Source: Chloroflexota bacterium
GTDB lineage: Bacteria; Chloroflexota; Dehalococcoidia; Lucifugimonadales; Australimonadaceae
Reading direction: 5' to 3'
DNA: 37,077 nt
Assembly: GCA_022561455.1 (NCBI GenBank)
Contig: JADFRC010000003.1
Span: 1 to 37,077 of the forward strand
The notes below the pieces were generated by a model. The model was not told where the DNA came from. It was given only the letters and a program-made list of their open reading frames with translations, and made no database searches. Within the stretch, counting starts at the first letter, position 1. Each line of letters opens with the position of its first letter. A program made the position numbers and the translations under genes. Shown piece by piece: positions 11,714 through 34,907 of this stretch.

Positions 11714-12175
11714 CTAAAAGGGCAGATCGTCCGTCGAAGTCTGCTCGGGCGAAGTCTGCTCGGGCGAGGTCTGCTCGGGCGGCTGCGGCTCGGCGGCCGC
11801 GGGAGCGCCCGCTTCATCGGACCGCTGCTCGCGCTCACCGGTCCCGGCCCGGTCGAGGAACAGCACGCGGTCGGCGATGATCTCGTTGCGGAACCGCATC
11901 TGGCCGTCGTTGCCCTGGTACGAGTGGCTGTGCAGCCGGCCCTCGACGTACGCGCGCTGGCCCTTGGAGAGGTACTGGTTCACCTGCTCTGCGAGCTGGC
12001 TCCAGGCGACGATGGTGAACCACTCCGTCTCCTCGCGCCGCTCGCCGTCCTGCGTGTTGTAACGCCGGTTGGTGGCCAGCCGGAACGACGTCACCGGACT
12101 GCCGCTGGGCGTGTAGCGCATCTCCGGGTCCGTACCCACGTTGCCGATGACCATGATCTTGTTGAGTCCAGCCAT
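11714..12175 (-). CDS. ssb: Single-stranded DNA-binding protein
   Basis: [37 protein letters not shown]..; C-terminal acidic tip DDLPF. Confidence 0.95.
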
Positions 12176-14085: not shown

Positions 14086-15393
14086 TCAACCACCGCCCTC
14101 CCGCCCGGCGGCGGGGACGGCCGCGCGGTCGGCTCGCGCCTGCTCCTCGGGCGGCCGGACCCTGCGGAACAGCAGGTAGAAGCCCAGGAGGTACAGGCTC
14201 TTGAAGACGCCCGTCGCGACGAAGGGGGCGCCGATCGAGATCGTGCTCCAGAGGAAGAAGGACACCGTGGGGCTGGCTATCGAGAGGCCGCTCTGAGCGA
14301 CGTTGCTGACGCCCGCCATGGCCACGCGCTCGTCCGAATCGACGATCGCCATGGTGTACGACTGCTTGGTGCCCACGTCCATCTGCGAGAAGAAGGCCCG
14401 CGCAAGCCAGAGCGCCACGGCCGTCCCGGCGGTCGGCATGAAGGGGATGGCGAACACCGTGACGACGGCGGGGACGTGCGTGAGCACGATGGTGTTGACG
14501 AGCCCATAGCGGTTGGCGAGCTTGGCGCCGACCCAGATGGAGATCGTATTCATGATGGTCGAGCCAACGAAGAGGTAGGCCACCTGCTCTAGCTCGAAAC
14601 CGAACCGGGTGTGGAACCAGAGCGCGACGACGGCCTGCATCACCAGTCTCGTGGCGAACGAATCGATGGCCATCAGTCCCGCGATCGAGAAGATGAGGCG
14701 GCGGGACGGCAGCCGGAAGGGGTTGGTCCATGCCCGGCGCGCCACCTTGCCCTCCACCGCAGGCGAGAGCATGAGGTAGATCAGGCCCGCCATGAGCGAG
14801 ACGAGTGCATAGCCGGCGAACATCACCTTGTAGGACGGCAGCTCGTCCAGGCCGAAGAACCCCTGGAAGACCACCGGCAGCGCGGCGCCGAGCGCTCCGA
14901 ATGCCCTGACGCCGGTTGCCGCCATGCTGTAAATGGCGAACATATCCGTGCGCCGCTCGGCGGGGGCCGTCTCCGCCATCGACGCTCGTTCCAGCGGCTG
15001 GACGGGACCGGCGGGGCCTCCACCTCCGACGTTGAAGCTGCCGACGAACGCGATGAAGGCGAGCAGCACGAACTGGTCGGTCAGCGCGAGCGCAACGCCC
15101 GTCACTCCCGTGAGCACGGTGAAACCGGCCAGCAGCCACCGGCGGCCCACTGCGTTACCGAAGAAGACGATCGCCACGGAGAAGAGCGCGCTGCCTGCTA
15201 TCCCGAAGCTGAAGAAGAGACCGATCTGCGCCAGGCTGAACCCCAGCAGGTCGAGGTAGATCGCCAGCACGATGCCGATGGAGGTCTGTGCGAAGCCCCG
15301 GAGGGAGCGCGCGGAGATGATGAGCCAGGCATCGCGGCTGATCCAGGCGAGGGGCCGTGGGCGTGCGGAGAACAGCGAGAGCATCGACCGCAT
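14086..15393 (-). CDS. Major facilitator superfamily transporter
   Basis: 435 aa, about 12 hydrophobic segments, e.g. GFSLAQIGLFFSFGIAGSALFSVAIVFFGNAVGRRWLLAGF. Confidence 0.85.
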   Translation of the reverse strand: MRSMLSLFSARPRPLAWISRDAWLIISARSLRGFAQTSIGIVLAIYLDLLGFSLAQIGLFFSFGIAGSALFSVAIVFFGNAVGRRWLLAGFTVLTGVTGVALALTDQFVLLAFIAFVGSFNVGGGGPAGPVQPLERASMAETAPAERRTDMFAIYSMAATGVRAFGALGAALPVVFQGFFGLDELPSYKVMFAGYALVSLMAGLIYLMLSPAVEGKVARRAWTNPFRLPSRRLIFSIAGLMAIDSFATRLVMQAVVALWFHTRFGFELEQVAYLFVGSTIMNTISIWVGAKLANRYGLVNTIVLTHVPAVVTVFAIPFMPTAGTAVALWLARAFFSQMDVGTKQSYTMAIVDSDERVAMAGVSNVAQSGLSIASPTVSFFLWSTISIGAPFVATGVFKSLYLLGFYLLFRRVRPPEEQARADRAAVPAAGREGGG

Positions 15394-15430
15394 TCTAGCT
15401 ACCGTACTCGCGAGAACGCGAGCGCGTGGG

Positions 15431-16084
15431 CTACTGCTCTCGCGTGAAGGCGAGCGCGTGCACGGACCGCGCGCCGCCGCGTTTCAGCGCGCCCGCGGCG
15501 GCGTCCAGCGTGCTGCCGGTCGTGAGCACGTCGTCGACGAGCACGACGCGCAGGCCGGCGACGCTGGCCCCAGGAGCCAGGCCGAACGCGCCAGCGACGT
15601 TCGCCCGGCGCTCGTCGATGCTCCCGGCATCGACCTGCGGCGTGCCGGCGACGAGCCGCCGCAGGAGGTCGTCGCGCACGGGCAGACCGACGGCCTCCGC
15701 GACCGGCCGCGCGAGCAGCAGCGCCTGGTTGAAGCCACGTTGGCGCAGACGGCTCGGGTGGAGCGGAACGGGGACGACGACATCGGCCCGGACGCTGGAG
15801 GACGAGATGGCCTCGGCCATCGGACGCGCCATCGACGGGGCGATGGCGCGCAGCCCCGAGTACTTGAGCCGGTGGACGGCCGTACGCGCGGTCCCCTCGT
15901 ACGCCAAGGGTGCAGTCACCTCGTCGAACGCGCGGGCGGCCGGGTCGAAGGCCATCGGACCCGCCCGGCGCGCACGGCCGAGGCATGCGTCGCAGAGGTA
16001 CGTCCCGCCGGCCCCGCATCCGACGCAGCGCGACGGCAGCAGGACTTCGATGGCGTGCCCCCACACCGTCGCGATGGCGCCCAT
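15431..16084 (-). CDS. comF: ComF-family phosphoribosyltransferase
   Basis: MGAIATVWGHAIEVLLPSRCVGCGAGGTYLCDACL zinc finger; PVPLHPSRLRQRGFNQALLLARPVAE; VVLVDDVLTTGSTLDAAAGAL PRPP loop. Confidence 0.9.
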   Translation of the reverse strand: MGAIATVWGHAIEVLLPSRCVGCGAGGTYLCDACLGRARRAGPMAFDPAARAFDEVTAPLAYEGTARTAVHRLKYSGLRAIAPSMARPMAEAISSSSVRADVVVPVPLHPSRLRQRGFNQALLLARPVAEAVGLPVRDDLLRRLVAGTPQVDAGSIDERRANVAGAFGLAPGASVAGLRVVLVDDVLTTGSTLDAAAGALKRGGARSVHALAFTREQ

Positions 16085-16111
16085 GGCGGTGACTCTACGC
16101 TTTCTGCGGCT

Positions 16112-16495
16112 TGCCTCAAAACCCCGGCGTGACAGATCGGGAGTGTAGAGGGGCTGTGCCCCTCTGCCGGGGGCACGGGGGGCCCTAATATCCGGCTTTA
16201 TCACCCCCCTCCCTGAGAGGCCATCGCCTCAAAATCCCCGGTCGTGCAGCGGATCGGGAGTGCAGAGGGGCTGTGCCCCTCTGCCGAGGGCGCGGGGGTG
16301 TCCCCCGTATCTGGCTTTATCACCCCCCTCCTTGAGAGGCCATCGCCTCAAAATCCCCGGTCGTGCAGCGGATCGGGAGTGCAGAGGGGCTGTGCCCCTC
16401 TGCCGGGGGCACGGGGGTGTCCCCCGTATCTGGCTTTATCTCCCCCTTCCTGGCGAGGAAGGGGGACGGGGGGATGGTCGAAACGGTCGCCGGCC
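16112..16495 (+). repeat. Tandem array of about 3 copies of a multi-hairpin repeat (family A)
   Basis: Units offset by about 117 and 119 bp, each with GCAGAGGGGCTGTGCCCCTCTGC (first unit has one wobble); last copy continues into CCCCCTTCCTGGCGAGGAAGGGGG and GATGGTCGAAACG. Confidence 0.9.
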
Positions 16496-16573
16496 ACCGA
16501 CTTCGCAAAAGCGAGGGCGGAGGTTTTGCGGCACGGCCGCCTACTGGCAAGAGGTGTGTGAGAATACCGGTGC

Positions 16574-17869
16574 ATGGCCCGACCGAGCAGATTCCAACTC
16601 GTTGCCGCCCTGGCGCACCGCGATTTCCGCTTGTTCTGGGCCGGGAGCGCGCTGTCCGTCGCGGGACGCCAGACGTCGATGCTCGCGATGGCCTGGCTGT
16701 TGTTCGATATCACCGGCTCGCCGCTTCAGCTCGGGCTCCTGGGCTTCGTCCGGTTCGTGCCGTCCCTGGTCCTCGGACTAGCCGGCGGCGTGGCCGCCGA
16801 CAAGGCGGACCGGCGCCGGCTCCTCATCGGAACGGCCCTTGGCGGCGCGGTGGTCTTCACGGCCCTCGCCACGGTGACGCTGACCGGGTCGGTGCAGACC
16901 TGGCACGTCCTGGCGGCCGGGTTTGCCGCGGCGTCGGTGGGCGCGTTCGAGGGGCCGTCGCGCCAGTCGATCTTCCCGCACCTGATCGACCGCCGCGACC
17001 TGACCAACGCCGTCGCGCTCACCGCGACCATCAACCCGTCGGTGCGCATCGTCATGCCGTTGGCGGCGGGGATCGCGATCGACCGGCTCGGCGAGGGGTA
17101 CACCGGCGCTGGCGCCGTGCTGGCCTTCATCGCGGGCATGTATCTGGTGTCCAGCTATCTGCTGTTCAGGGTGCACATGCCCCGCCTCAAGGGTGCGCTG
17201 GGGAGCGGCATCCAGAACGTCGTCGCGGGCGTGCGCTACGTCCGTTCCAACCACGTCTTCGCGTTCCTGATCCTGATGGCCTACGTCTGGGCTTTCTTCG
17301 GGCAGTCCTACACCATCCTCCTGCCGGTGTTCGCATCCGCGATCGACGAGGAGTCGTCGGGGATCATCCTGGGGTCGCTGCACTCGATCAGCGGTCTCGG
17401 CGGGTTCATCGGGGCGCTCGGCAGCGGCGCGCTCCGATCGGTGCCGAGGCCAGGTCTCGTCATCGTGGCGATGGGCGTCGCGTTCGGCGCGGCCGTGGCG
17501 GGGTTCGCCTACAGCCCGTGGTACGGACTGACCTTGCTTCTGCTGATGCTCGCGTCGATGAGCCATGAGATCTTCGGGGTCACAGCCATGAGCATCCTGC
17601 AGCGCAGGCTGGACGACGAGTACCGCGGCCGCGTGATGGGGCTGTGGGGGATGCAGTTCTCCGTGCTGCACTCGCTCGGCAACCTCCAGATCGGCGCGCT
17701 CGCGCTCTTCCTGGGCGCCCCAGCGGCCGCCGCGATCGCCGGAGCCATCGTGGCCACGTTCGCCGTCTTCGTGGCGGGCTCCGACCGGCAGATCCGCAGC
17801 CTGCGGCACGACCCGCACCCAGGGGCAGAGGACGCCGCAGCGACGCCTCCGGAGCGCGAAGGCGCATGA
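16574..17869 (+). CDS. Major facilitator superfamily transporter (MFS_3/EntS-like)
   Basis: FQLVAALAHRDFRLFWAGSALSVAGRQTSMLAMAWLLFDITGSPLQLGLLGFVRFVPSLVLGLAGGVAADKADRRRLLIGT. Confidence 0.88.
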   Translation: MARPSRFQLVAALAHRDFRLFWAGSALSVAGRQTSMLAMAWLLFDITGSPLQLGLLGFVRFVPSLVLGLAGGVAADKADRRRLLIGTALGGAVVFTALATVTLTGSVQTWHVLAAGFAAASVGAFEGPSRQSIFPHLIDRRDLTNAVALTATINPSVRIVMPLAAGIAIDRLGEGYTGAGAVLAFIAGMYLVSSYLLFRVHMPRLKGALGSGIQNVVAGVRYVRSNHVFAFLILMAYVWAFFGQSYTILLPVFASAIDEESSGIILGSLHSISGLGGFIGALGSGALRSVPRPGLVIVAMGVAFGAAVAGFAYSPWYGLTLLLLMLASMSHEIFGVTAMSILQRRLDDEYRGRVMGLWGMQFSVLHSLGNLQIGALALFLGAPAAAAIAGAIVATFAVFVAGSDRQIRSLRHDPHPGAEDAAATPPEREGA

Positions 17870-18600
17870 TCGAGGCCGTCTTCCTCGACTTCTACGGCAC
17901 GCTGGTCAAGTGGGCGCCCGACGCCGAGGAGATGCAGCGCGACGCCGCCGCGGCCGAAGGGCTGGCCGTCGACCCCGCGGCGGTCGCTCGCGCCTACACC
18001 GCCGCCAACGCGTACATGAACGCGGAGAACGCGCAGGAGCGCATCGCCGCGCGCTCAGGCGAGGACCGCGCGCGGTTCTTCGCCGAGTACGAGCGCCGGC
18101 TCCTGGCCGCGGCCGGCTACGACGTGGACGTAGCGCTGGCCGGGCGGATCTGGGCTCGCGTGCAGGCGGCGCAGAAGGAGCTGGCGCCGTACGACGACGC
18201 GCTCCCGGCGCTCCGAGCGCTCCGCGAGGCGGGAGTGAGGCTCGGCGTCGTCTCGAACATGGGCCGCGAGCTCGGCTCGATCCTGGAGCACCTCGGCTTG
18301 GCAGCGCACCTCGATAGCTGGATGTCGAGCGAGGAGGCGGGCGTCGCCAAGCCGCACGCCGCGATCTTCAAAGCCGCGCTCGATCAGGCCGGCGTGCGTG
18401 CGGACGCAGCGCTCTTCGTCGGCGACAGCTACGACTCCGACGTGCTCGGCGCGCAGGACGCCGGGATGCGGGCGGCACTGCTGCTACGCGACCCCGAAGC
18501 GGCGCCGCCGCCGGGCTGCGCGGTCGTGCGCACGCTGGGCGAGGTCCTCGGCCACGCGCGTGACCTCGGTTTGAGGCCGGAGCGCACACGAAAGGAGTAG
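17866..18600 (+). CDS. HAD-superfamily hydrolase
   Basis: VFLDFYGTLVKW motif I; LGVVSNMG; GVAKPHAAIFKAAL; FVGDSYDSDVLGAQDAGM. Confidence 0.9.
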   Translation: MIEAVFLDFYGTLVKWAPDAEEMQRDAAAAEGLAVDPAAVARAYTAANAYMNAENAQERIAARSGEDRARFFAEYERRLLAAAGYDVDVALAGRIWARVQAAQKELAPYDDALPALRALREAGVRLGVVSNMGRELGSILEHLGLAAHLDSWMSSEEAGVAKPHAAIFKAALDQAGVRADAALFVGDSYDSDVLGAQDAGMRAALLLRDPEAAPPPGCAVVRTLGEVLGHARDLGLRPERTRKE

Positions 18601-18680
18601 CGCTCCGGGGGGGCGCGTGTGGTAAGCTTGCGTCAGCGGCAACGAGGCCGCTGCGTTCATTCTCTCCCCCCTGTGCCCCG

Positions 18681-18955
18681 ATGGCCTATCAGGTCTATTT
18701 CGCCGACCTCACCGAAGAGAACCGGTCGCTGATCCTGACCCTGCTCCGCTTGAAGGAGGAATCCGGAAAGCTGGAGCCGAGCGAGGAAGAGCTTCTGGCG
18801 AAGCTGCGCGAGGAAGCCGCGGCGTTGCCGCAGTCGGCTTTCGCCGAAGCGCCTCGCAGCAGCAGCAGCAGCAGCGGCAGGGGCAACGGCGTTCCTTCTC
18901 CCGGCGCGGCTCCGGCAACGGCCGGGGCCACCAGAGCAACGGCGACCGCGGCTAG
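18681..18955 (+). CDS. Small conserved-looking protein of unknown function; 3' half probably needs a frame change in a CAG tract
   Basis: N-terminal MAYQVYFADLTEENRSLILTLLRLKEESGKLEPSEEELLAKLREEAAALPQ. The supplied ORF then runs antisense into mfd, while another frame gives QQQQQQRQGQRRSFSRRGSGNGRGHQSNGDRG* ending at 18955. Confidence 0.5.
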
Positions 18956-18977
18956 CCCTCACGCGGCGGGCCAGCTC

Positions 18978-22520
<3,543 letters not shown>

Positions 22521-22541
22521 CGATAGCGCTCCAGAACCTAC

Positions 22542-22605
22542 GGATGGGCGTCCCCGGCAAGCCGGGCACGCCAAAAGGGCCGGCAGGCCGGCCTCATGGG
22601 CATCC
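22542..22605. other. Structured intergenic palindrome predicted to form a three-way junction
   Basis: Outer GGATG...CATCC enclosing GGCGT-c-CCCGGC-AA-GCCGGG-c-ACGCC and GGCCGG-CAGG-CCGGCC. Confidence 0.6.
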
Positions 22606-22739
22606 TATCACCTCGGTGGTGCGCTCGAAGGTTCTTCGCCGGAGGGGAGCGCCCCGGCCCTCACGCCGGCCGGGGTTGCGTTACAATCGGTCGGTACCTG
22701 GCGCAGCGTTCCCGCGCGTGCTGCGCGAGCGAGTCACCG

Positions 22740-23924
22740 ATGGCCTCTCGAACCCCCAAGAAAGCGCCCGCCGAGAACGGGCCCAAGCTCGCCTACCGGC
22801 GCATCGTCGTCAAGGCGGGCACGAACGTGCTTACCCGCGGCGGGCCGGGCCTGGACCGCGCGATGATGGCCTCGCTCGTCTCGCAGGTCGTGGCGGTCCG
22901 CCGCCTCGGCGCGCAGGTGCTCCTCGTGACCTCGGGCGCGATCGCGGCCGGGCGCGAGGCCTTGGGCGAGCCGCGGGCGACGAAGGGCGTGGCGCTCTCC
23001 CAGATGCTCGCCGCCGTCGGACAGAGCCGGCTGATGCACGCGTACCAGGAGCTCTTCTCCCACGACGACGTCGTCGTCGCGCAGACGCTGCTCACGCGCC
23101 GCGACGTGGACGACCGCGTCGGCTACCTCAACGTGCGCAACACGCTCGAGGGGCTCATCGACGCCGGCGTCGTGCCCATCGTCAACGAGAACGACGTGGT
23201 CGACACCGCGGAGATCGGCCAGGACCGCTTCGGCGACAACGACACGCTCTCGGCGCTGGTCGCGAACCTGGTCGACGCCGACCTGCTGGTGATGCTCACC
23301 GACACGGGTGGGCTGTACACGGCCGACCCCAAACGCGACCCGAGCGCGACGCTGATCCCCCTGGTCGAGAGCGTCGACGACTCCGTGATGGAGCTCGCCG
23401 AAGAGCACCGGAGCGCCAGCACGCGCGGCGGCATGGCATCGAAGCTCGCGGCGGCGAAGCAGGCCACCGAGGCCGGCGTCACGGTCGTGATCGCACCCGG
23501 CGGCGAGCCGGACGTCGTGCAGCGGGTCGCGTGCGGCGAGCCCCTGGGCACGCTGTTCCCGACCGGGACGACGAAGGTGGAGAGCCGCAAGCGGTGGCTG
23601 CTCAGTGGCATGGCCGACAGCGGTGGCGTGCTCGTGGCCGACGACGGCGCCGTGCGGGCGGTCCGCGCTCAGGAGCGCAGCCTGCTGCCGGCCGGCGTCC
23701 GCGGCGTGCGGGGCGCCTTCCGGCGCGGCGACGTGATCTCGGTCGAGAGCACCAGCGGCCAGCGCATCGCCTATGGGATCGCGAACTACGACGCCGACGA
23801 CCTGCGGGCCATCCAGCAGGCGAAGTCGGACCAGATCATGGACCTCATCGGCCACCACTACGGCGACGAAGCCATCCACCGCAACAACATGGTCGTCCTC
23901 GGCCGCAACGGGGCGGACTCATGA
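22740..23924 (+). CDS. proB: Glutamate 5-kinase
   Basis: [80 protein letters not shown]-terminal PUA-like region. Confidence 0.95.
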
Positions 23925-25195
23925 CGACGGCAGTCTCCGAGCTCATCACCAAGGCCAAGGCGGCCAAGGCTGCGGCACGCAGCTTGCGCATGCTGCCGAC
24001 CGAGACGAAGAACGCGGCGCTCGAAGGGATCGCGGCCGCGCTCGAGCGCGGCCAGCGTGCCATCCTCGACGCCAACGCCCTCGACATGGACGCGGGCCGT
24101 GCGGCGGACCTCGGCGAGTCGGTCCTCGACCGCCTGCTGCTCACCGAGGAGCGGCTGATCGGCATGGCCGCCGACGTGCGGGCGGTCGCCGCGCTGCCGG
24201 ACCCGGTCGGCGAGGAGTTCGACCAGCGCACGCTGGAGAACGGCATCCGTCTGGCGCACCGGCGCGTGCCCCTCGGCGTCATCGGCTGCGTGTACGAGAA
24301 CCGCCCGAACGTCACCATCGACATCTCGGCGCTCTGCCTGAAATCCGGCAATGCGGTCGTGCTGCGCGGCGGCAAGGAGGCCATACACTCCAACACCGCG
24401 CTGACGGCGCTCGTCCGCGACGCGCTCGGATCGGCCGGCGTCACGCCCGAGGCCGTCCAGTTCATCACCGACACCGACCGCGCCGTCGTGGAGCAGATGG
24501 TCCGGCTCAAGGACTACCTCGACCTCTTCATCCCGCGCGGCGGCGAGCAGTTCATCCGCTGGGTGCGCGAGAACGCGACCGTCCCCTCGGTGACGGGCGG
24601 CATCGGCGTCGTCCACACCTACGTGGACGAGACGGCCGACGCCGAGGATGCCGCGGCCATCGTCTTCAACGCGAAGGTCCAGCGCCCCAGCGTCTGCAAC
24701 GCGCTCGACACGCTGCTCATCCACCCCGCGGCGGCCGCCCGCATGCTGCCCGACATCGCCTCGCGGCTCACCGCCGCGGGCGTCGAGCTGCGCTGCGACC
24801 AGCGGGCGCTCGCGCTCCTGGGGCCCGTCGACGACCGCCCGATCAAGGCGGCGGAGGAGGGGGACTTCGGGCAGGAGTTCCTCGCGCTGGTGCTCTCGAT
24901 ACGCGTCGTCGACTCGCTCGATGAGGCGATCGAGCACATCGAGACGTACGGCTCGGGCCACACCGAGGCCATCGTGACGGGCGACGACGCGGCCGCAGCG
25001 CGCTTCGTCGACGAGGTGGACGCGGCCGTGGTGCTGGTCAACGCCAGCACGCGGTTCAACGACGGCGGCCAGCTCGGGCTGGGCGCGGAGGTCGCCATCA
25101 GCACCGGCAAGCTGCACGCCCGCGGGCCGATGGGGCTCCGCGAGCTGACGAGCTACAAGTGGGTGGCGCTGGGCACGGGCCAGGTGCGCCCGTAG
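23921..25195 (+). CDS. proA: Gamma-glutamyl phosphate reductase
   Basis: [56 protein letters not shown]; 4-nt overlap with proB. Confidence 0.95.
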
Positions 25196-25245
25196 CGGCA
25201 ACGCCGCGCCGAGCGAGTGGGAGCCTCGCTGCAAAAAGCCCTCGC

Positions 25246-25400
25246 GCACCCGAGGGGAGTGCAGAGAGCCTGCCCTGAGCTTGTCGAAGGGGGCTCTGCC
25301 CCCTCTGCCGGGGGCACGGGGGTGTCCCCCGTAACTGGCTTTTACACCCCCTTCCTGGCGAGGAAGGGGGACGGGGGGATGGTCGAAACGCTGGTGGGGC
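25246..25400 (+). repeat. Multi-hairpin repeat copy B1, first hairpin interrupted by a ~25-bp dispersed repeat
   Basis: gagtgcagagAGCCTGCCCTGAGCTTGTCGAAGGGGGCTCTGccccctctgccgggggcacgggggtgtcccccg...CCCCCTTCCTGGCGAGGAAGGGGGacggggggatggtcgaaacgctggtggggcacc. Confidence 0.9.
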
Positions 25401-25460
25401 ACCAACGCTCCCGCGACGGGGCGGGGGTCAGGCACAGCCAAGTGAGTGAGGAGGGAGCAC

Positions 25461-25769
25461 ATGCTGCGATTCGAGCGTGAGTGCCGCACACCGTACTCGG
25501 AGGTGTACACGATCTACGACGACGACCAGCCGCAGGGCCGGTTCGACGTCCACTTCGCCGGGAACCTGATCCACGCCACGCTGTGCGTGTCGGAGCGCTA
25601 CACCCAGGACGAGATCCAGGACCTGATCGAGGACCTGGACGGCGAGCTGCTCGACGCCATCGGCCTCACGCGCGACGACTTCATCGTGCACGTCCACCAG
25701 GGCCGCGACGTCGGCGTCTTCTCCCACAGCGAGTACAGCGAGGACGAGCAGGCACCCTCGGAGAACTGA
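25461..25769 (+). CDS. Small conserved-looking protein (102 aa) of unknown function
   Basis: ATG at 25461 preceded by GAGGAGGGAG; MLRFERECRTPYSEVYTIYDDDQPQGRFDVHFAGNLIHATLCVSERYTQDEIQDLIEDLDGELLDAIGLTRDDFIVHVHQGRDVGVF. Confidence 0.75.
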   Translation: MLRFERECRTPYSEVYTIYDDDQPQGRFDVHFAGNLIHATLCVSERYTQDEIQDLIEDLDGELLDAIGLTRDDFIVHVHQGRDVGVFSHSEYSEDEQAPSEN

Positions 25770-25789
25770 CGCCCTCCGTGGGCAGCCGC

Positions 25790-25975
25790 CTTGCCTCAAG
25801 ACCCCTGCCCGTGCACCGGATGGGGTGTGCAGAGGGGCGAAGCCCCTTCGTCGGGGACGGGGGGCGTCCCCCGCCTTTGGCTTCACCACCCCTTCCTAGC
25901 GAGAGCCTGCCCTGAGCTCTGTCGAAGGGAAGGGGGACGGGGGGGATGGTCGAAACGCTGGTGAGGCACCGACAC
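25790..25975 (+). repeat. Multi-hairpin repeat copy B2, third hairpin interrupted by a ~25-bp dispersed repeat
   Basis: TTGCCTCAAGACCCC left end as in family A; AGGGGCGAAGCCCCT hairpin; ccccttcctagcgaGAGCCTGCCCTGAGCTCTGTCGAAGGGaagggggacgggggggatggtcgaaacgctggtgaggcacc. Confidence 0.9.
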
Positions 25976-26025
25976 CACAGGAGCAGAGCGGAGGTTCTAA
26001 GACAACCCACCGTGAGCAGCACTCC

Positions 26026-26868
26026 ATGATCCTCGACTTCCACACGCACATCCTGCCGCCGTCGTTCCAAGAGCGCCGCGCCGAGATCGCCGAGCGCGAC
26101 GCGACGTTCGCCGCGCTGTTCGCCAACGACGGCGCGCGCATGGCGACGGCCGACGATCTCATCGCCGCGATGGACGAAGACGGCGTCGACACCTCGGTCG
26201 CCCTCGGCTACGGATGGTGCGACAAAGACGTCGCCCGCGAGTCCAACGACTACCTGCTGGAATCGGCCGAGCGCTTCCCCGGCCGGATCGTGCCGTTCTG
26301 CTCCGTCCACCCCAGGTGGGGCCGCGCGGCGCTGGCGGAGGTCGAGCGGTGCGTCGAGGCGGGCGCCGCCGGCATCGGCGAGCTGCACCCAACGTCGCAG
26401 CGCATCGCGCTCGGGCGCGACCGCGCTCTGGCCAAGCTGATGGCGCTCGCGGCCGAGCGCGGGCTGCCGGTCGTCGTGCACGGCTCGGAGCCGGTCGGCC
26501 ACGCCTACGCGGGCAAGGGCACGACGCACCCCGCCGAGCTGCTCGCGCTCATCTGCCGCTTCCCGGAGACGACCATCGTCTGCGCGCACTGGGGCGGCGG
26601 GCTGCCCTTCTACGCGCTCATGCCCGAGGTACGCGCCGCGCTTGCGAACGTGTACTTCGACTCGGCGGCCTCACCGTTCCTCTACGAGCCGGGTGTCTTC
26701 GGAGCCGTGGCGGGAACGGCCGGGACCGAGCGCATGCTCTTCGGCTCCGACTTCCCGCTCATGCGGGCGCACCGGGTCGCGAAAGAAGCCATCGACGGGC
26801 TCCCGGCGAAGGACGCGGCCGAGGTCATGGGCGGCAACGCGGCGCGGCTGCTGGGTCTAGACCCGTGA
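26026..26868 (+). CDS. Amidohydrolase-2-family metal-dependent hydrolase (TIM-barrel)
   Basis: MILDFHTHILP; CAHWGGGLPFYALMPEV; RMLFGSDFPLMR. Confidence 0.88.
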   Translation: MILDFHTHILPPSFQERRAEIAERDATFAALFANDGARMATADDLIAAMDEDGVDTSVALGYGWCDKDVARESNDYLLESAERFPGRIVPFCSVHPRWGRAALAEVERCVEAGAAGIGELHPTSQRIALGRDRALAKLMALAAERGLPVVVHGSEPVGHAYAGKGTTHPAELLALICRFPETTIVCAHWGGGLPFYALMPEVRAALANVYFDSAASPFLYEPGVFGAVAGTAGTERMLFGSDFPLMRAHRVAKEAIDGLPAKDAAEVMGGNAARLLGLDP

Positions 26869-27410
26869 GCAGCCCGACGCTGCCCGACTACCTGCGGCCC
26901 GGCCTCGACATCGTGTTCGTCGGCATCAACCCAGGCGCGTATTCGGCGAGCGTCGGCAAGTACTTCGCGACGCCGCAGAACCGCTTCTGGCCCGCGCTCA
27001 ACCGCTCGGGGATCGTCGGCGCCGGGCGCGACCTGGGCCCCGGCGACGAGGCCTGGCTGAGCGACCGGGGCCTCGGCTTCACCGACGTCGTCAAGCGCGC
27101 CTCCAACAGCGCATCGAGCCTGCGCGCCGCGGACTTCCGCAAGTGGGCGCCCGTCGCGAAGGCCAAGCTGGTCGAGGCCGCGCCGCTGGTCGTCTGCTTC
27201 AACGGTGTGACCGGGTTCAAGTGGTTCATGCAGTACGCCGAGGCTGTAAAGGTCGACGTGGAGCTCGGCCGGCAGCCGGGGCTTCTGGGGACGAGCCGGG
27301 TCTTCGTGGCGCCGAACCCGAGTCCGGCCAACGCCGTGTACTCGCTGGATGCCATCGCCGGCTGGTACCGGCGCCTCGGCGAGCTGCGCGACGAGCTCAA
27401 GCGTGGCTGA
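26865..27410 (+). CDS. mug: G/U mismatch-specific uracil-DNA glycosylase (Mug/TDG-like)
   Basis: GTG start overlapping upstream stop; DIVFVGINPGAYSASVGKYFATPQNRFWPALNRSG; FVAPNPSPANAVYS. Confidence 0.9.
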   Translation: MSSPTLPDYLRPGLDIVFVGINPGAYSASVGKYFATPQNRFWPALNRSGIVGAGRDLGPGDEAWLSDRGLGFTDVVKRASNSASSLRAADFRKWAPVAKAKLVEAAPLVVCFNGVTGFKWFMQYAEAVKVDVELGRQPGLLGTSRVFVAPNPSPANAVYSLDAIAGWYRRLGELRDELKRG

Positions 27411-27987
27411 CCCGCCGCTCCGCCTCTTTGTAAGCGTTGAGCTACCGCAGCACGTGCGCGGCGCTCTCAGCACGTCGATCGAACGATTGCGCTCAAGCCT
27501 GGGCGACGCCTACCGCTGGGTCAGGCCCGAGGCCGTCCACCTCACGCTGCGGTTCTTGGGCAACGTCGAGCAGGAGCGCGTGGCGGAGCTTGCCGCCGCC
27601 CTCGAAGCGGCGGTCGGGCCGCTCGCCGCGTTCGAATTGCGGCTCGACGGCACGGGCGTCTTCCCCAACGCGCGCGCACCGAGCGTCGTATGGGCCGGCC
27701 TCGGCGGAGAGTCCGCGGCGCTCGTCCGGCTCGTCGCAGCCGTCGGCACCGCGACCGCTGGCGTCGGCGAGCCCGCCGAGAGCCGGCCGTACGTGCCGCA
27801 CCTGACGCTCGGGCGGGTCCGCGGCCGGCTCGGTACGCGGGACGCCGGGGAGCTAGCCGCGCGTCTGCGCGAGCTCACGTACGAGGGTACCGCCCCGTTC
27901 CGCGTCGACGGCGTAAGCCTGATGCAAAGCGAGATCGGCCCCGCTGGCGCGCGCTACACGCGGCTGGCGTACGCGCCGCTCGGCTAG
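27403..27987 (+). CDS. thpR: RNA 2',3'-cyclic phosphodiesterase (LigT/ThpR)
   Basis: Two HxTx motifs: VHLTLRFLGNV and PHLTLGRVRG; N-terminal LRLFVSVELP. Confidence 0.92.
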   Translation: MADPPLRLFVSVELPQHVRGALSTSIERLRSSLGDAYRWVRPEAVHLTLRFLGNVEQERVAELAAALEAAVGPLAAFELRLDGTGVFPNARAPSVVWAGLGGESAALVRLVAAVGTATAGVGEPAESRPYVPHLTLGRVRGRLGTRDAGELAARLRELTYEGTAPFRVDGVSLMQSEIGPAGARYTRLAYAPLG

Positions 27988-28772
27988 CCCGCGACGGCCT
28001 CGAAGACCGCGCCGCCGATAACCGCCACCCCGACCAGCGCGACGAAGAAGGCGAGGTTCACCCGCCGCGCGAGCGCCAGCAGCACCTTGATGCTGGCGAG
28101 CCCCACGACGAACGCGACCGCCGCACCGGCCAGACCCTCGGCCGTCCGCAGCACGCCCGAATCGAGCCCCGCGAACAGCGCCGCGGCGAGCCCGGCGGGG
28201 ATGCCGAGGAGGAAGCTCAAGACCAACGCCTCGGAGCGCTCGACCCGCCGCCCGAGCAGCACCGCGACCGTCAGCCCGGAGCGGCTGAGGCCCGGCAGCG
28301 CCGCGAGCCCTTGCGCGAGGCCGGTCAGGACGGCGTCGAGGAGCGAGAGCCCGGTGCGGTCGCGGGTGCCGGAAATGGGCCGCCGCACCTGCACGGCCCC
28401 CGTCGCGACCATGAGCGCGCCGACGAGCGCCATCGCCCCGGCGCCGAACGCGCCGGAGAGATCGTCGAGCAGGAGCAGCAGCGGCAGCCCAACGACCGCG
28501 CTGACGACGGTCCCGACGGCCAGGAAGGCGAGCAGCGGCGAGGGGTGCATCGGGTCGCGCAGGAGCTCGCGCGCGATGCCTGCGACCTCCCGCCGGAACG
28601 CCACGACCGCCGCAAGCGACGTCCCGACGTGCAGCCAGAGCGCGACCGCGACGGCATCGGACGCGTCGTAGTCGAACAGGAACGCGGAGGCCGCCGTGAC
28701 GACCCCCTGCGAGCTGACCGGCAGCCATTCGGTGAGGCCCTGGAGCAGGCCGAGGAGTGCGCTCTCGATCAT
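27984..28772 (-). CDS. uppP: Undecaprenyl-diphosphatase
   Basis: MIESALLGLLQGLTEWLPVSSQG and GLAALPGLSRSGLTVAVLLG motifs. Confidence 0.93.
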   Translation of the reverse strand: MIESALLGLLQGLTEWLPVSSQGVVTAASAFLFDYDASDAVAVALWLHVGTSLAAVVAFRREVAGIARELLRDPMHPSPLLAFLAVGTVVSAVVGLPLLLLLDDLSGAFGAGAMALVGALMVATGAVQVRRPISGTRDRTGLSLLDAVLTGLAQGLAALPGLSRSGLTVAVLLGRRVERSEALVLSFLLGIPAGLAAALFAGLDSGVLRTAEGLAGAAVAFVVGLASIKVLLALARRVNLAFFVALVGVAVIGGAVFEAVAG

Positions 28773-28916
28773 GGGGGGACGGCTCCACGACGGCGGACGG
28801 TTGACCTGGGTCGGGGCCGACGCCATGCTAAGCGACCGGCGCCAGGCCGCATAGGCTGGCGGCCTAGCTCAACCGGCGGTTCTGGCCCATGTCTTACGCG
28901 AGATAGGAGATCAGAC

Positions 28917-29330
28917 GTGCAGTTCAACGACGCTCTGGAGTTCCTCGGGCGCGAGCACAGCGCCGTCGTCACGACCTTCGGCCGCTCCGGCCGCGCGCAG
29001 GCGACGATCGTGCGCGCGGGGCCCTACGAGGGCGGGATGGCGTTCGTGGTGCGCGGCGCCACGGTGAAGCTCGCGAACCTCCGCCGCGACCCGCGGTGCA
29101 CCGTGCTCACCGTGTCGCCCGACTGGCGGAAGTACGTCACGGTCGAGGGCAGCGCAACGGTCCACGCACCCGACAACACCGGCGCCGAGGAGCTGCGCCT
29201 GCTGCTCCGGGCGGCATTCGCAGCCGCCGGCGGCACGCATGAGGACTGGGAGGAGTACGACCGCGTCATGCGGGAGCAGGGGCGCGCGGTGGTCCTCGTC
29301 GCGCCCGAGCGAGTCTACGGCAGCGCCTAG
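28917..29330 (+). CDS. PPOX-class pyridoxamine 5'-phosphate oxidase/F420-dependent-like protein
   Basis: FLGREHSAVVTTFGRSGRAQATIVRAGPYEGGMAFVVRGATVKLANLRRDPRCTVLTVSPDWRKYVTVEGSATV. Confidence 0.85.
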   Translation: MQFNDALEFLGREHSAVVTTFGRSGRAQATIVRAGPYEGGMAFVVRGATVKLANLRRDPRCTVLTVSPDWRKYVTVEGSATVHAPDNTGAEELRLLLRAAFAAAGGTHEDWEEYDRVMREQGRAVVLVAPERVYGSA

Positions 29331-29761
29331 TCCGCCGAGAGCTCCTCGAGCAGCGCCGCCGCCCAGGCCGCCTTCGGCTCGGGGATGCCGCAGTGCGCGG
29401 CGAGCGTCCGGCTGCCGGGCAAGCGGCGCGGCGTCGCGGGCAGCAGCAGCCCCGCGGCGAACTCCTCCGCCTGGCGCTCGGCCTTCACGCGGTTGACCCA
29501 CTGCCACGACTCCAGATACAGGCTCGTGCCCGTGTGCAGCAGCCGGTGGCCGATGGCATGCGCGGTCAGCCAACGCACCCAGGGCGCAGACAGCCGGTCG
29601 TCGATGCCGATAGCACCCTCGATGATCACCTCGCGGACCCTGCCCTCGAACCGCCACGGGACGACCTCGAGACCGAGGCGGTGGAGCAGCGGCGACAGGT
29701 CGGCTGGTGCTTCGAGACCGGACGAGCGGGCCAGCGAGCGGCCCCTGGCAAACGCACGCAT
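29327..29761 (-). CDS. ImmA/IrrE-like domain protein, motif HAIGH in place of HExxH
   Basis: WVRWLTAHAIGHRLLHTGTSLYLESWQWVNRVKAERQAEEFAAGLLLP; the ImmA/IrrE family normally has HExxH plus a downstream E. Confidence 0.75.
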   Translation of the reverse strand: MRAFARGRSLARSSGLEAPADLSPLLHRLGLEVVPWRFEGRVREVIIEGAIGIDDRLSAPWVRWLTAHAIGHRLLHTGTSLYLESWQWVNRVKAERQAEEFAAGLLLPATPRRLPGSRTLAAHCGIPEPKAAWAAALLEELSAD

Positions 29762-29853
29762 AACGGCGATCCTCCGGGTCCTCCCCCGAGGGCGCATTGT
29801 CCGAGACGGCTGATGCGGATGCTAGGGGCGATTGTCGGGAGGCGTGCGGACAG

Positions 29854-30222
29854 CTAGCTGCGCTTGCTGCGGACGTAGCGGGCGAAGTCGCGGACCTGCT
29901 CCCACTCCGCGTCGGTGAGGTCGCCGACCTCGTAGAGGCGTGCCAGGTCCGTGCCGCGGATCGGCGTGTCGTACTCCTCCTGCGTGATGTGGCCCGCGTG
30001 GACCAGCAGCTCGCCGACCGGCACGCCCATGGCGGCGGCGAGCTTCTTGAGCGTCGACGGCCGCGGCACGTTGCCGTGGTTGAACAGCGCGCTCAAGGTC
30101 GTATGCGGGATCCCCGCGCGCTGGGCGAGCGCCAGCTGCGAGCTTGAGCGTTCGCCGAGCCACCGCTTGATGAAAGCCGCCAGCTGCTTCGAGTCCGTGC
30201 TTGCCACGGCGGGATTGTACAT
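29854..30222 (-). CDS. XRE-family HTH regulator
   Basis: LALAQRAGIPHTTLSALFNHGNVPRPSTLKKLAAAMGVPVGELL. Confidence 0.85.
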   Translation of the reverse strand: MYNPAVASTDSKQLAAFIKRWLGERSSSQLALAQRAGIPHTTLSALFNHGNVPRPSTLKKLAAAMGVPVGELLVHAGHITQEEYDTPIRGTDLARLYEVGDLTDAEWEQVRDFARYVRSKRS

Positions 30223-30283
30223 CGGCCAGCCCGAATCCCGTGACAGCCGGCCCTCGCCCGGCGGTGGGCTTCTGCGTACCATC

Positions 30284-30318
30284 GTCATATTCATTTCAGT
30301 CAGTACCCGTTATATGAC
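30284..30318. promoter_or_regulatory. AT-rich inverted repeat GTCATAT-N21-ATATGAC, candidate operator/promoter
   Basis: Perfect 7-bp arms between the divergent XRE gene and zinc-ribbon micro-ORF, in an AT-rich island within GC-rich DNA. Confidence 0.5.
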
Positions 30319-30339
30319 TACGCCGGTCCAGGGGGTGGC

Positions 30340-30501
30340 ATGCCCGTCGTCCACGAGAACGTCCGATGCCCGCGCTGCCTGAGCCGAGGCGCTCGCGAGC
30401 TGAGTTGCCTGCCGGAGGAGCGCCACGCCGTCTACATGTGCCCGTTCTGCAAGCACACGTGGTGCGAGTCGGGCCGCCAGCCCGCGCCCGCCGCGGCCTG
30501 A
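30340..30501 (+). CDS. 53-aa zinc-ribbon micro-protein (absent from the supplied ORF track)
   Basis: MPVVHENVRCPRCLSRGARELSCLPEERHAVYMCPFCKHTWCESGRQPAPAAA*; CPRC..CPFC pair; AGGGGGTGG upstream. Confidence 0.65.
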   Translation: MPVVHENVRCPRCLSRGARELSCLPEERHAVYMCPFCKHTWCESGRQPAPAAA

Positions 30502-30568
30502 CCTCCGCCGCTGGTGTGCCCCGTAACCGTGGCCTCAAGCGCAGGACGGTTTGACGCGTTGGCCGACA

Positions 30569-30585
30569 CCAAACGGTACGTTTGG
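30569..30585. other. Perfect hairpin CCAAACG-GTA-CGTTTGG
   Basis: 7-bp stem, 3-nt loop read directly. Confidence 0.5.
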
Positions 30586-30656
30586 CGCTCGGACAGCGTT
30601 GGCACTGAGGTCGGTCGTTGGGCGAGAAGCCCGCAGTCTGACCCGAGAGTCTGTCT

Positions 30657-30682
30657 CTAGCTAGTCGAGCGTGACTCGCTAG
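30657..30682 (-). terminator. Hairpin overlapping the methyltransferase stop codon (CTAG-CGAGT-cacg-CTCG-a-CTAG), possible 3'-end structure
   Basis: ctagctagtcgagcgtgactcgctag read directly; no clear U tract. Confidence 0.35.
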
Positions 30683-32322
30683 ATCATCCTCTTTGTCCTG
30701 CTCGGGGGCCTCCGTCGCCGGGGAGCACGCTTAAAGGTCGGCGCCGGAGCATGTCGCGGATAGTGGGGTTCTCGGCCATCTAGGAGCTCGGCAATGGTGA
30801 GGATCTGGACCCGCGGGTACTTGTCCTCGGGAAAGTGCTCTGGCGTGTAGAATCCCGCGACTACGGCTTCCTCCTGCATTGGCTTCGTCGGCTCTTCCAG
30901 GGTGACGAACAATCCGATGGGCGCTCCTTCTCGCTCGAGCACGCCTTTCAGGTCGCGTATCTGGTTCACCGTCACGTGGCCGCTCTTCACCGATACGATG
31001 ACCTCTTTGGCCTTTCCACTGTTGTCGTCGAAGAAGTTGATATAGCCGTCTATTCCCTTGTCCGCTCCCTTTTTCCCGGCTTGGGAGGGCCGTGCGTCTA
31101 CAAGCCCCGCAGCCCAATACTGGAACTGGTACCGACCGTCATGCTCGCTCTCGGCAGCGAGTGCCTTTGCGCCCTCAAGATCTTTCGGGTCACCCACCAC
31201 GTCGTAGGGTGCTAGGTCTTCCTCGAACGTGTCTTTCAGCCGTTTCTTCATCAGGCTGATTGCCAAGTGCGTGATGTCGATGCCTACCCACCGCCGCTTT
31301 AGCCGCTCAGCGACCGCGACCGCGGTGCCACATCCGCAGAAGGGATCCAACACAAGGTCCCCCTCGTCGCTGCTCGCCTCAACGATCCGTTCCAGAAGTG
31401 CCTCTGGTTTCTGCGTGGGGTATCCGAGACGCTCGCGGGCCTGCGGATTGACGGGCGGAATGTCCGTCCAAATGTTCTGAAGTGGTACCCCAGGCATCTC
31501 GTCGGCGTACTCAAGAAGAGTGGGGGTGCCGGTCCGCGTGTAACGTAGAAGGCCGTCCCTCTCGTACTGCTCCATCACCTCCTGCCGAATCGCCCACGTC
31601 CGGCTGGGAGCCGGCATCTTGCCTCGCCAGTTGTAGAGAAGTGCGGGACTACCTTCGCCATGGCGTGGAGCGTCCAGCGGGACAGTGCGGAAGAGTCTTC
31701 CGGTCGCGTCGGGCTTGAAGTGTGAGTCGTAATATTCCTCGCGATAGGGTGTGTGCCGTGTGTTCCACTTGGCCTTGGAGGTTTTGCCGTAGAAGAGGAT
31801 GGTGTCTGAGATTCGCCCAAACCTCTTTGGGTCATTGTGGGCATTCGCCCGTTTCCAGATGATCTCGTTTCTGAAGTTTCGCGCGCCAAAGACCGCGTCC
31901 ATCAGCAGCTTCAAGTAGTGGCTAGCCGTGGGGTCGCAATGTAGGTAGATACTGCCTGTCATCTTCAGGACCCGATGCAGCTCCATCATCCGCTGGGCCA
32001 TCATGGTCAAGTAAGCCATCATGTCGTTCTGACCAAGGAAAGCACGCATCGCTTGGAGCAAGTCGCCTACGTGTTTTGGCGCGTGCCGAACCATCTCTTC
32101 GTAGGCGGCTTCGGACTCCAGCCCCCAGTGCCAGGTGTCTTCAAACGCCGCAATCTGCGCCGCGGAGCGGTCCCCGCTCGTTTCTTTGAACAGCACATTG
32201 TACGTGGCGTTTGAGTTGAACGGCGGGTCCAAGTAGATGAGATCAACGCTCTCGTCGGGCACGTGCTGCCGCAGGATGTCGAAGTTGTCCCCGAAGTAGA
32301 GTTTGTTTTTCCAGTCTGCCAT
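30679..32322 (-). CDS. Beta-class-like DNA methyltransferase (N6-A or N4-C) with C-terminal Mrr/PD-(D/E)xK-like domain
   Basis: Motif [18 protein letters not shown] precedes motif [29 protein letters not shown]-terminal [44 protein letters not shown]. Confidence 0.88.
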
Positions 32323-32525
32323 TCCCCCACCTCTCGCCCCAGCGGGCTGATGGCCATGTTACACGGGGGTAGACCCAATCACGCACCCGCGGAATGGCGC
32401 TAGCAGGCGTTCATCGTGGAATGGCCGGGTAGCGAGCTCCAGATCCAGCACCGCTCGCACCCTTCTCCTCGCCCTGCCACCTCCCCCTTACCCCATTGCA
32501 ACCGTTATGACAGCATGAGCGGGAG

Positions 32526-32545
32526 GGCCGGTGCGCGCACCGGCC
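32526..32545. other. Perfect 20-bp palindrome GGCCGGTGCGCGCACCGGCC
   Basis: Read directly; in the non-coding stretch upstream of the terminase. Confidence 0.6.
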
Positions 32546-32583
32546 ATGCCAGCCGCTAGACCCGGCCGGCGATCGAGACCCCC

Positions 32584-32623
32584 AGCAAAGCGGAGCGAGC
32601 CGTTACGGCCCGCTCCGTTTTGC
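32584..32623. terminator. Terminator-like hairpin AAAGCGGAGCGaGCC-gttac-GGCcCGCTCCGTTTT
   Basis: GC stem with A-rich left and T-rich right flanks, upstream of the terminase gene. Confidence 0.5.
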
Positions 32624-32656
32624 GTTCCCCGGCCCGCCGGGCGAGAGACGAGAGGA

Positions 32657-34306
32657 ATGGCCGAGCAACCGGAGCAGCAGCGAGACGCACCTGCGGCAGG
32701 CGATGCCGCCGGAGCGGCGCCGCGTGCTCAGGCCGGAGCCGGGGCAGAGCACGAGCAGCAGCCCTACGTCCTCGCCATCCGCCAGTGGCTCCAGCGCAAC
32801 CACGTCAGAAACGTGGCGCTCGCCGGCAGGGCCCGCATCGGCCGCTCCACCCTCGGGCACATCCTCTCCGGCCGCGAGCCCTCTGACTTCATCCTCGACA
32901 AGCTCGCCACGTCCACCAAGCCCCCCCTGACCCGGATGCGGCGCGATCAGCGCGTCGCGGCCCAGGCCCGGCCGGCGCCCCAGCCTTCGGACTACGCCTC
33001 CGACCCCGTCGCCTTCGTGCGGGACGTGCTCGGCGACGCCGGGCGTCCCTACGCCAAGCAGGTCGAGCTGTTCGAGGCCGTCGCCCGCCACCGACGGGTC
33101 TCCGTCGTCGGCTGCAACGGCTCCGGCAAGGACTGGGCCGCGGCCAGGGTCGTGCTCTGGTGGCTCGCCACCCATCGGCGGGCCAAGGCCGTCGTGACGG
33201 GACCCACCCAGCGCCAGGTCGAGGAGGTCCTCTGGCGGGAGATGCGCACCGCCTTCGGTGCGGCCCGCGACCGGCTCCCCGGACAGATGTACACCGCGCG
33301 CTACGTCGTCGACAACGACCGCTTCGCCCTGGGCTTCGCCACCAACCACCCCTACAACCTCCAGGGCTTCCACTCGCCCAACCTGCTCGTGGTCGTGACC
33401 GAGGCGCACGCCGTCGGCCAGGAGCACATGGACGCGCTCAAGCGGCTCAACCCGAAGCGCCTGCTGCTCACCGGCAACCCGCTCACGCTCTCCGGCGAGT
33501 TCTACGACTCCCACCACCGCAAGGCCAGCCTTTATACGCGCGTGTCCATCTCGGCCTTCGACACGCCGAATCTCCAGCTGGGACGCGACGACGCCGTGCC
33601 CGGCATGCTCACGCCCGAGGACGTCGAGGAGCGCCGGCGCGACTGGGGCGAGGACCACCCGCTCTACGTGGCCGCCGTGCTGGGGCAGTTCCCCGAGGCG
33701 CTCGAGGACTCGCTGATCTCCCGCAAGCAGCTCGACGAGGCGGTCGAGCGGTGGAGCTCGACCTCGGCCGAGACCGGCAAGCCGTGGATCATGGGCGTCG
33801 ACGTCGCGCGGTTCGGGTCCGACAAGACCGTCTTGTGCCTGCGGCGCGGCGGGCGCGTGGAGCGCATCCATGAGCTGCGTGGCGCCGACACCATGCAGAC
33901 CGCGGGGCGCGTCCTGGACTACGTCTGGCGGCACGGCGTCCAGGCCGTCTTCGTCGACGCGGCCGGCGTGGGCGGCGGCGTGGTGGACCGGCTCAAGGAG
34001 CTCCAGCAGCCGGTGGTAGAAGTGCAGGTCGGCGGCGCAGCCTCGAACCCGAGCCGGTTCATCAACCTGCGCGCCGAGATCTTCTGGGACCTGCGCCGGC
34101 GCTTCCTGACCGGCAGCATCGCCATCCCCGACGACGCCGAGCTCGCCGGACAGCTGCTCGCGCTGCGCTACGACATCGCCAGCAGCGGCCGCATCCAGCT
34201 CGAGAGCAAGGCGGACCTGCGCGCCAAAGGACAGCCGTCGCCCGATCGGGCCGACGCCCTGGCGCTCGCCTTCATGGCGCCGGCCTCGATGGACGTGTGG
34301 GTATGA
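32657..34306 (+). CDS. Phage terminase large subunit with N-terminal HTH-like region
   Basis: VSVVGCNGSGKDWAAARVVLWWL Walker A-like; KAVVTGPTQRQVEEVLW; nuclease-like GVDVARFGSDKTV..VFVDAAGVGGGVVDRL; N-terminal VALAGRARIGRSTLGHILSGREPSDFILDKLATST. Confidence 0.9.
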   Translation: MAEQPEQQRDAPAAGDAAGAAPRAQAGAGAEHEQQPYVLAIRQWLQRNHVRNVALAGRARIGRSTLGHILSGREPSDFILDKLATSTKPPLTRMRRDQRVAAQARPAPQPSDYASDPVAFVRDVLGDAGRPYAKQVELFEAVARHRRVSVVGCNGSGKDWAAARVVLWWLATHRRAKAVVTGPTQRQVEEVLWREMRTAFGAARDRLPGQMYTARYVVDNDRFALGFATNHPYNLQGFHSPNLLVVVTEAHAVGQEHMDALKRLNPKRLLLTGNPLTLSGEFYDSHHRKASLYTRVSISAFDTPNLQLGRDDAVPGMLTPEDVEERRRDWGEDHPLYVAAVLGQFPEALEDSLISRKQLDEAVERWSSTSAETGKPWIMGVDVARFGSDKTVLCLRRGGRVERIHELRGADTMQTAGRVLDYVWRHGVQAVFVDAAGVGGGVVDRLKELQQPVVEVQVGGAASNPSRFINLRAEIFWDLRRRFLTGSIAIPDDAELAGQLLALRYDIASSGRIQLESKADLRAKGQPSPDRADALALAFMAPASMDVWV

Positions 34307-34506
34307 AGGCCGTGCTGCGCTCGATCGAGCGAGCCGCCCGCGAGCTCGTGGCGCTCTTCGCAGCGCTGGCCCTCGTGCCGCTGGCGCCCGGCCTCGGCGC
34401 GTCGTACGCGGGCGCGCCCTGGCAAGCCCTCGTGCTGAGCGGCGCGTGGGCGGCGTGCTGGTACGCATGGCTGTGGGGGCGGCTGCGGACGCAAAACGCG
34501 CCGTGA
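34303..34506 (+). CDS. Small membrane protein in phage module
   Basis: ATG at 34303 overlaps terminase stop; hydrophobic ELVALFAALALVPLAPGL and ALVLSGAWAACWYAWLWG. Confidence 0.6.
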   Translation: MKAVLRSIERAARELVALFAALALVPLAPGLGASYAGAPWQALVLSGAWAACWYAWLWGRLRTQNAP

Positions 34507-34884
34507 CCCCCCCTCCTCAGAGGGGGCCCTGCGGAATGCCCGTTCCGTGGGCGGGATGAGGAGTGCAGAGGGCCTGCCCTGAGCCTGTCGAAGGGGGCAG
34601 AGCCCCTCTGCCGGGGGCGCGGGGGTGTCCCCCGCATCCAAGTTTCCCACCCCCTTCCTGGAGGAAGGGGGACGGGGGGATGGTCGAAACGCCCGTCGGC
34701 AGCCGACGCCATAACGAGGTAACCCGCAGTCAGGCAAGTGGACACAAAAGAAGGGAGTGCAGAGGGGCGGAGCCCCTATGCCGGGGGCGCGGGGGTGTCC
34801 CCCGCATCCAAGTTTCCCACCCCCTTCCTGGAGGAAGGGGGACGGGGGGATGGTCGAAACGCCCGTCGGCAGCCAACCATAGCG
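34505..34884 (+). repeat. Two multi-hairpin repeat copies (C1, C2) inside the phage head module; C1 carries an extra 24 bp
   Basis: 34609-34704 and 34779-34874 read as identical 96-bp blocks; C1 first hairpin contains CCTGCCCTGAGCCTGTCGAAGGGGG while C2 has the uninterrupted GCAGAGGGGCGGAGCCCC. Confidence 0.92.
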
Positions 34885-34907
34885 AGGACAGAAAAGAGAG
34901 GTGAGCG

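Follow-up and report, generated by a model that had tools for sequence, protein, structure and literature searches.

The repeat array and its copies in the window

The DNA analysed here, termed the window, is a stretch of 37,077 nucleotides from contig C14 of a Dehalococcoidia MAG (G000; 2.1 Mb in 196 contigs). A gene for a phosphoribosyltransferase-domain protein on the minus strand, consistent with ComF, and a gene for an MFS protein on the plus strand diverge from an intergenic region that contains a tandem array of hairpin-rich repeats. A previous sequence-only reading had placed three near-identical units between divergent comF and MFS genes, and both the gene assignments and the units are borne out, the units being spaced 117 and 119 bp apart. 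The array proposed at 16112–16495 is real, but its limits are slightly wider (16107–16537), as defined by an empty site in the congener G002. None of 100 shuffled sequences folds as well as the array, so that the repeat greatly exceeds chance expectation.

The hairpins differ somewhat between units. Hairpin 1 (H1; GCAGAGGGGC-TGT-GCCCCTCTGC), which had been assigned to every unit, has no change in units 2 and 3 and one in unit 1 (GTAGAGGGGC). A GGGGG-TGT-CCCCC hairpin is present in the last unit, as was stated, but it is not exclusive to it, being found in unit 2 also; unit 1 has GGGGGGCCC instead. The CCCCCTTCCT-GGCG-AGGAAGGGGG motif is confined to the last unit, in agreement with the earlier description. 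The first two units do end differently, with ..CCTCC(C/T)TGAGAGGCCATCGCCTCAAAATCC, and this alternative ending is the left arm of hairpin 3 (H3) fused to the following unit's left end. The array is modular, as had been suggested, although instead of dissimilar modules it has incomplete copies of a single element: it consists of two left-end fragments and one full element, with the fragments joined at the hairpin 3 tip (Table 1).

The related copies that had been noticed elsewhere in the window are found at 25.25–25.40, 25.8–25.98 and 34.55–34.88 kb, all on the plus strand. A covariance model built in this work detects seven cores at the four window sites, again all on the plus strand; weaker minus-strand scores stem from the palindromic arms. 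The gene adjoining the fourth copy (34908–36083) matches a phage portal protein (PF04860, 2.9e-66), and because of this match the window may end, on its right side, in a prophage. The window also contains a 15-bp tandem repeat, CGAAGTCTGCTCGGG, at 11735–11793.

Table 1. Positions of the repeat element, its parts and its further copies in the window
Feature	Position	Strand	Remark
Left target-site duplication CGCTTTCTG	16098..16106	.	Single copy CGCCTCCTG at G002 empty site
Whole inserted element, two left-end fragments plus full element	16107..16537	+	Absent from syntenic site in G002 and G001
Left terminal inverted repeat (CGGCTTGCCTCAAAACCCC; family GGCYTTGCCTCAAAACCCC)	16107..16125	+	
Unit 1, left-end fragment, stops in hairpin 3 left arm/loop; H1 with one change, H2 altered	16113..16225	+	
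Unit 2, left-end fragment, H1 and H2 intact, stops in hairpin 3 left arm/loop	16226..16344	+	
Unit 3, full element: H1, H2, H3, conserved tail GGGGGGATGGTCGAAA, right end	16345..16537	+	
Hairpin 1, full unit	16381..16403	+	Family covariation
Hairpin 3, full unit; near-invariant class-wide	16442..16466	+	
Right terminal inverted repeat (reverse complement GCCGTGCCGCAAAACC)	16522..16537	-	
Right target-site duplication CGCCTACTG	16538..16546	.	Comparison with congeners G001 and G002
Second copy, left end decayed, CCTGCCCTGAGCTTGTCGAAGGG insert in H1	25256..25391	+	Site empty in G001 and G002
Third copy, same kind of insert as second copy but in H3	25786..26010	+	Site empty in G001 and G002
Fourth site, tandem pair of cores	34556..34880	+	One copy here in G002

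Full copies of the element are approximately 200–240 bp in length and gene-less; those with a second type of end, termed B-type, are 140–165 bp. The left part of a full copy consists of GGCYTTGCCTCAAAACCCC, about 20 nt, GGGGAGT, hairpin 1 (GCAGAGGGGC nnn GCCCCTCTGC) and CGGGGG. This is followed by hairpin 2 (ACGGGGGTGTCCCCCGT), about 15 nt, hairpin 3 (CCCCCTTCCTGGCGAGGAAGGGGG), the tail GGGGGGATGGTCGAAA and the inverted right end. Thus a core of three GC-rich hairpins with a conserved tail (GGGGGATGGTCG) is enclosed, in the A-type element, by terminal inverted repeats with GGCYTTGCCTCAAAACC at both ends.

In many copies an arm or loop of hairpin 1 or 3 carries an insert of another short repeat, CCTGCCCTGAGC(C/T)TGTCGAAGGG (e.g. 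25268–25292, 34571–34595 and 25908–25930 of the window, and loci L008, L021, L162 and L167). This repeat is also found outside the element, for example in flanking sequence of G038. Its appearance is REP-like, with a seeming preference for the tips of hairpins.

Insertion, target duplication and tandem units

The window from 15300 to 35250 was compared by BLAST with two congeners, G001 and G002, and the array is missing in both at the same place. The G002 match on the left runs up to 16106 and that on the right begins at 16538, with an overlap of 9 bases in G002 (CGCCTCCTG). In the window CGCTTTCTG precedes the array and CGCCTACTG follows it, while the unoccupied G002 site has one copy of CGCCTCCTG. 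Because the G002 matches abut the array and share these 9 bases, 431 bp (16107–16537) were inserted with a 9-bp target duplication, and a single pair of duplications encloses the whole tandem multimer. The 25.2- and 25.8-kb sites are also empty in both congeners, with only 27–50 and 21–36 nt there. Thus only the fourth window site, at 34.5 kb, is occupied in a congener, with one copy in G002 and two in G000; both congeners lack the element at the other three.

Sites outside the window have the same signature. At C30:26319–26559, ACGATAGTG is present on both flanks, and it is found once, without the element, in both congeners. Perfect 9-bp duplications are also found at C41:17362–17513, C167:5042–5193 and C139, which brings those outside the window to four, and these four copies have the common end GGC(T/C)TTGCCTCAAAACC. 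In the 12 copies for which automatic recognition succeeded at both ends, the mean identity of the 9-bp flanks is 0.50 compared with 0.32 for mismatched flanks, and other lengths give no such signal. Clean target duplications are kept in only a minority of copies; therefore many copies are old or rearranged.

The sequence-only reading had entertained a non-autonomous mobile element, and this is upheld by the terminal inverted repeats, the 9-bp target duplications and the empty sites. Being short and gene-less, with terminal inverted repeats, a target duplication of fixed length and empty sites, the element is a MITE by the working definition. We read the array as a single insertion locus of a Dehalococcoidia MITE, inserted between the comF and MFS genes and partly copied in tandem, with a probability of about 0.9. 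The insertion most likely took place after G000 split from G001 and G002, since the element lies between comF and MFS in G000 and not in these congeners.

Movement of the element and duplication of the 9-bp target would be the work of a transposase that acts on the inverted repeats in trans. An end match to a trans-acting autonomous element is usual for a MITE but not required. Searches of G000 with PF01609, PF00872 and PF06782 gave no match (for PF06782 without a positive control), and no member of these families in relatives has the element's ends. Pairs of the terminal inverted repeat 0.6–3.5 kb apart likewise revealed no transposase element with matching ends. Multi-copy IS elements are often missing from MAGs, and the parents of MITEs are frequently lost.

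The joints within the array follow one pattern. Units 1 and 2 both stop in the hairpin 3 loop, and the left end of the next unit follows directly. The same joint, with a loop of 5–7 nt, is found at at least 10 further G000 loci, always head to tail (joint loci are on C22, C30, C41, C46, C122, C128, C146, C153, C175, C38 and C78, and in the window). The joint events are not all independent, because some dimers carry the same hairpin 2 variant. Perhaps the units arose by nested transposition into the hairpin 3 tip, the right half then being lost by recombination, and the exactness of the joints at the left terminus and within the loop is in keeping with this. Simple nested insertion is expected in both orientations, however, and only one is seen, without an inverted nest or an extra right half at any G000 joint locus, which weakens the proposal; in addition, dimers with a common variant H2 may be descendants of one event. 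Nested transposition is thus rather unlikely. For the duplication we favour either a joint made at one end with a sister copy, or slippage at hairpin 3. The left part, from the left end to the hairpin 3 tip, is present three times head to tail; its left end would have been joined to a sister copy's hairpin 3 tip, or replication would have slipped at hairpin 3, and the joint in the window would afterwards have been duplicated once more.

Hairpin covariation and a possible role in transcripts

When 32 cores drawn from many genomes are aligned, 10 of 27 pairs have two-sided changes, and 94.9% of cells are paired. The covariation score is 0.177 compared with 0.088 for shuffles, none of 500 of which reaches it, and slid versions give at most 0.054. 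The stems therefore vary in a compensatory manner, and the signal is carried by hairpins 1 and 2, while hairpin 3 hardly varies. It should be pointed out that the named loci were searched with the hairpin 3 right arm and tail as the pattern; the invariance of these two parts at those loci is thus partly selected, the left arm not having been in the pattern.

Copies of the element are intergenic. No overlap with called genes was found for 47 clusters in G000 or 145 in other genomes, where genes were called with a simple hexamer script written for the analysis. Between co-directional genes the core is in sense orientation 71 times and antisense 21 times (p=1.6e-7). In convergent and divergent contexts its orientation is unrelated to the wider gene direction, which is evidence against a replication-strand cause of the bias, and that cause was rejected. 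The sense bias hints at a transcript role, or at harm done by antisense copies. Of the two roles that had been offered, mobile element or regulatory RNA/DNA structure, the first stands, and the second is only hinted at by this bias.

As was pointed out in the sequence-only reading, the array is no simple 3′ terminator: no U tract follows any hairpin on either strand, and a plain intrinsic terminator is therefore unlikely. Judging from the orientation bias, the hairpins in transcripts of the downstream gene would probably form a folded leader or spacer.

Covarying hairpins, strictly intergenic sites and the sense bias might also be explained by a conserved cis-regulatory RNA (5′-UTR or intercistronic) that is non-mobile and inherited at loci under selection. 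But the congener sites are empty with one target copy, the element has terminal inverted repeats and target duplications, the window has no match to an Rfam family, and the neighbouring genes are varied. This is very improbable and, as the sole explanation, is refuted by the empty sites; a secondary role of the kind is possible. A MITE whose hairpins are selected in RNA, where they are processed or stabilise or attenuate mRNA in the manner of Correia and ERIC elements, is a better prospect, at somewhat less than even odds. It accords with the sense bias being tied to adjoining genes only, with the two-sided changes in H1 and H2, and with the action of RNase III or RNase E on such repeats elsewhere (PMC10969869). 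On the other hand, pairing would also be preserved by DNA cruciforms, antisense copies might just do more harm, and wobble pairs have no consistent strand preference: their total favours the plus strand but rests on two or three columns, and other columns favour the minus strand.

Distribution, alternative ends and comparable repeat elements

The G000 genome has at least 55 BLAST matches to the repeat. With the core model, cores are detected in 76 of 148 Dehalococcoidia genomes sampled, over more than 40 families, many genomes having at least 26, and almost all repeat-core matches listed with names are from Chloroflexi or Dehalococcoidia MAGs. Copies are thus genome-wide and class-wide, and with their dispersal, different flanks and many host genomes they do not all derive from recent local duplication. 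Repeats break the contigs of these MAGs and several copies lie at contig ends, as a purely local tandem repeat or an assembly artefact might; dozens of dispersed copies and the syntenic empty sites refute this, and its likelihood is negligible. In G038, contig ends (L031–L042) carry numerous B-type copies that are nearly identical, and the element appears to break that assembly. An A-type element is also present on a contig labelled Acidobacteria (L120, JADFOM010000038.1), by binning error or transfer between phyla, and a core copy on one viral-collection contig (L160, IMGVR_UViG_3300009373_000582).

The core lies between more than one kind of end. A-type ends, GGCYTTGCCTCAAAA, are accompanied by the 9-bp duplications. 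B-type ends, CAGGNTGNTGAAAAA, flanked by YTAR (mostly CTAG), directly surround the core in G038, G027, G028 and G034, the cores of which are approximately 82% identical to G000 over 103 nt. The CAGGNTGNTGAAAAA end pattern has 35 to 116 matches per genome and its reversed control has 0. YTAR is found on both B-type flanks, where a 4-bp duplication is likely but indistinguishable from a fixed target. Ends in G056 are GAGACTGTTTAATAAC/GTTGCTAAACGCTCTC, GGCYTTGCACNAAAAG-like ends are found in G067 and some Baikal MAGs, and further genomes look different again. Left and right types are paired: A/A in 16 copies, B/B in 59 and mixed A/B in 3.

Thus one core, present in about half of the genomes sampled from the class, is combined with several different transposon ends. 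The different target sites point to exchange of ends more than to divergence beyond recognition. A subfamily in the JACVQK MAG B4_bin.23 (L084, L089, L127 and L129) has the left end TAGTGTCGCGTCA(C/G)GCTATT with mostly the usual B-type right end, possibly an end exchange caught in one genome. Tentatively, and with the odds against it, the three-hairpin core may be a unit of its own that was repeatedly acquired by unrelated ends across the Dehalococcoidia, hairpins and ends being separately evolving modules, with transcript work favouring sense retention and the left terminus re-added at the hairpin 3 tip in one-sided growth.

Several known repeat families can be compared. REP/BIME sequences with RAYT transposases are likewise high-copy extragenic palindromes, but REPs are not known to have terminal inverted repeats or a 9-bp target duplication; a closer likeness to REPs is seen in the small CCTGCCCTGAGCYTGTCGAAGGG insert that some copies contain. 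MITEs derived from IS elements in other bacteria are also gene-less, with inverted repeats and a fixed-length target duplication, but here one core is common to several end types and no parental IS was found for either end type. Correia (NEMIS) and ERIC elements have ends that differ from those of the element. They are examples of repeats acting on mRNA, and are similarly non-autonomous and intergenic, with terminal inverted repeats and hairpins active in transcripts (PMC10969869). RNA processing has been demonstrated there and may occur in the present element, and ERIC behaviour is orientation-specific where the element shows an orientation bias only.

The closest precedent is the BOX family of Streptococcus pneumoniae and S. 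suis: short, intergenic, MITE-like sequences with strong folding, whose inner modules are repeated in tandem a variable number of times. In S. suis, two different end pairs can flank the same boxB modules (PMC3049150). The likeness is one of organisation (boxA-(boxB)n-boxC in streptococci). In the present element, what is repeated is the left end together with two and a half hairpins. Its core is very GC-rich, A ends go with a 9-bp target duplication, and the family is class-wide instead of limited to one genus.

No paper with the end, core or inner-repeat strings was found in the open literature searched. The element is very widespread, previously undescribed in that literature, and of a known kind. 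Such repeats break Dehalococcoidia MAG assemblies and reshape intergenic regions. The sharp empty sites in congeners ease expression comparisons in principle, and one core with several ends across the class makes a good test case for the nature of the folded part inside a MITE: cargo, transposition signal or regulatory RNA.
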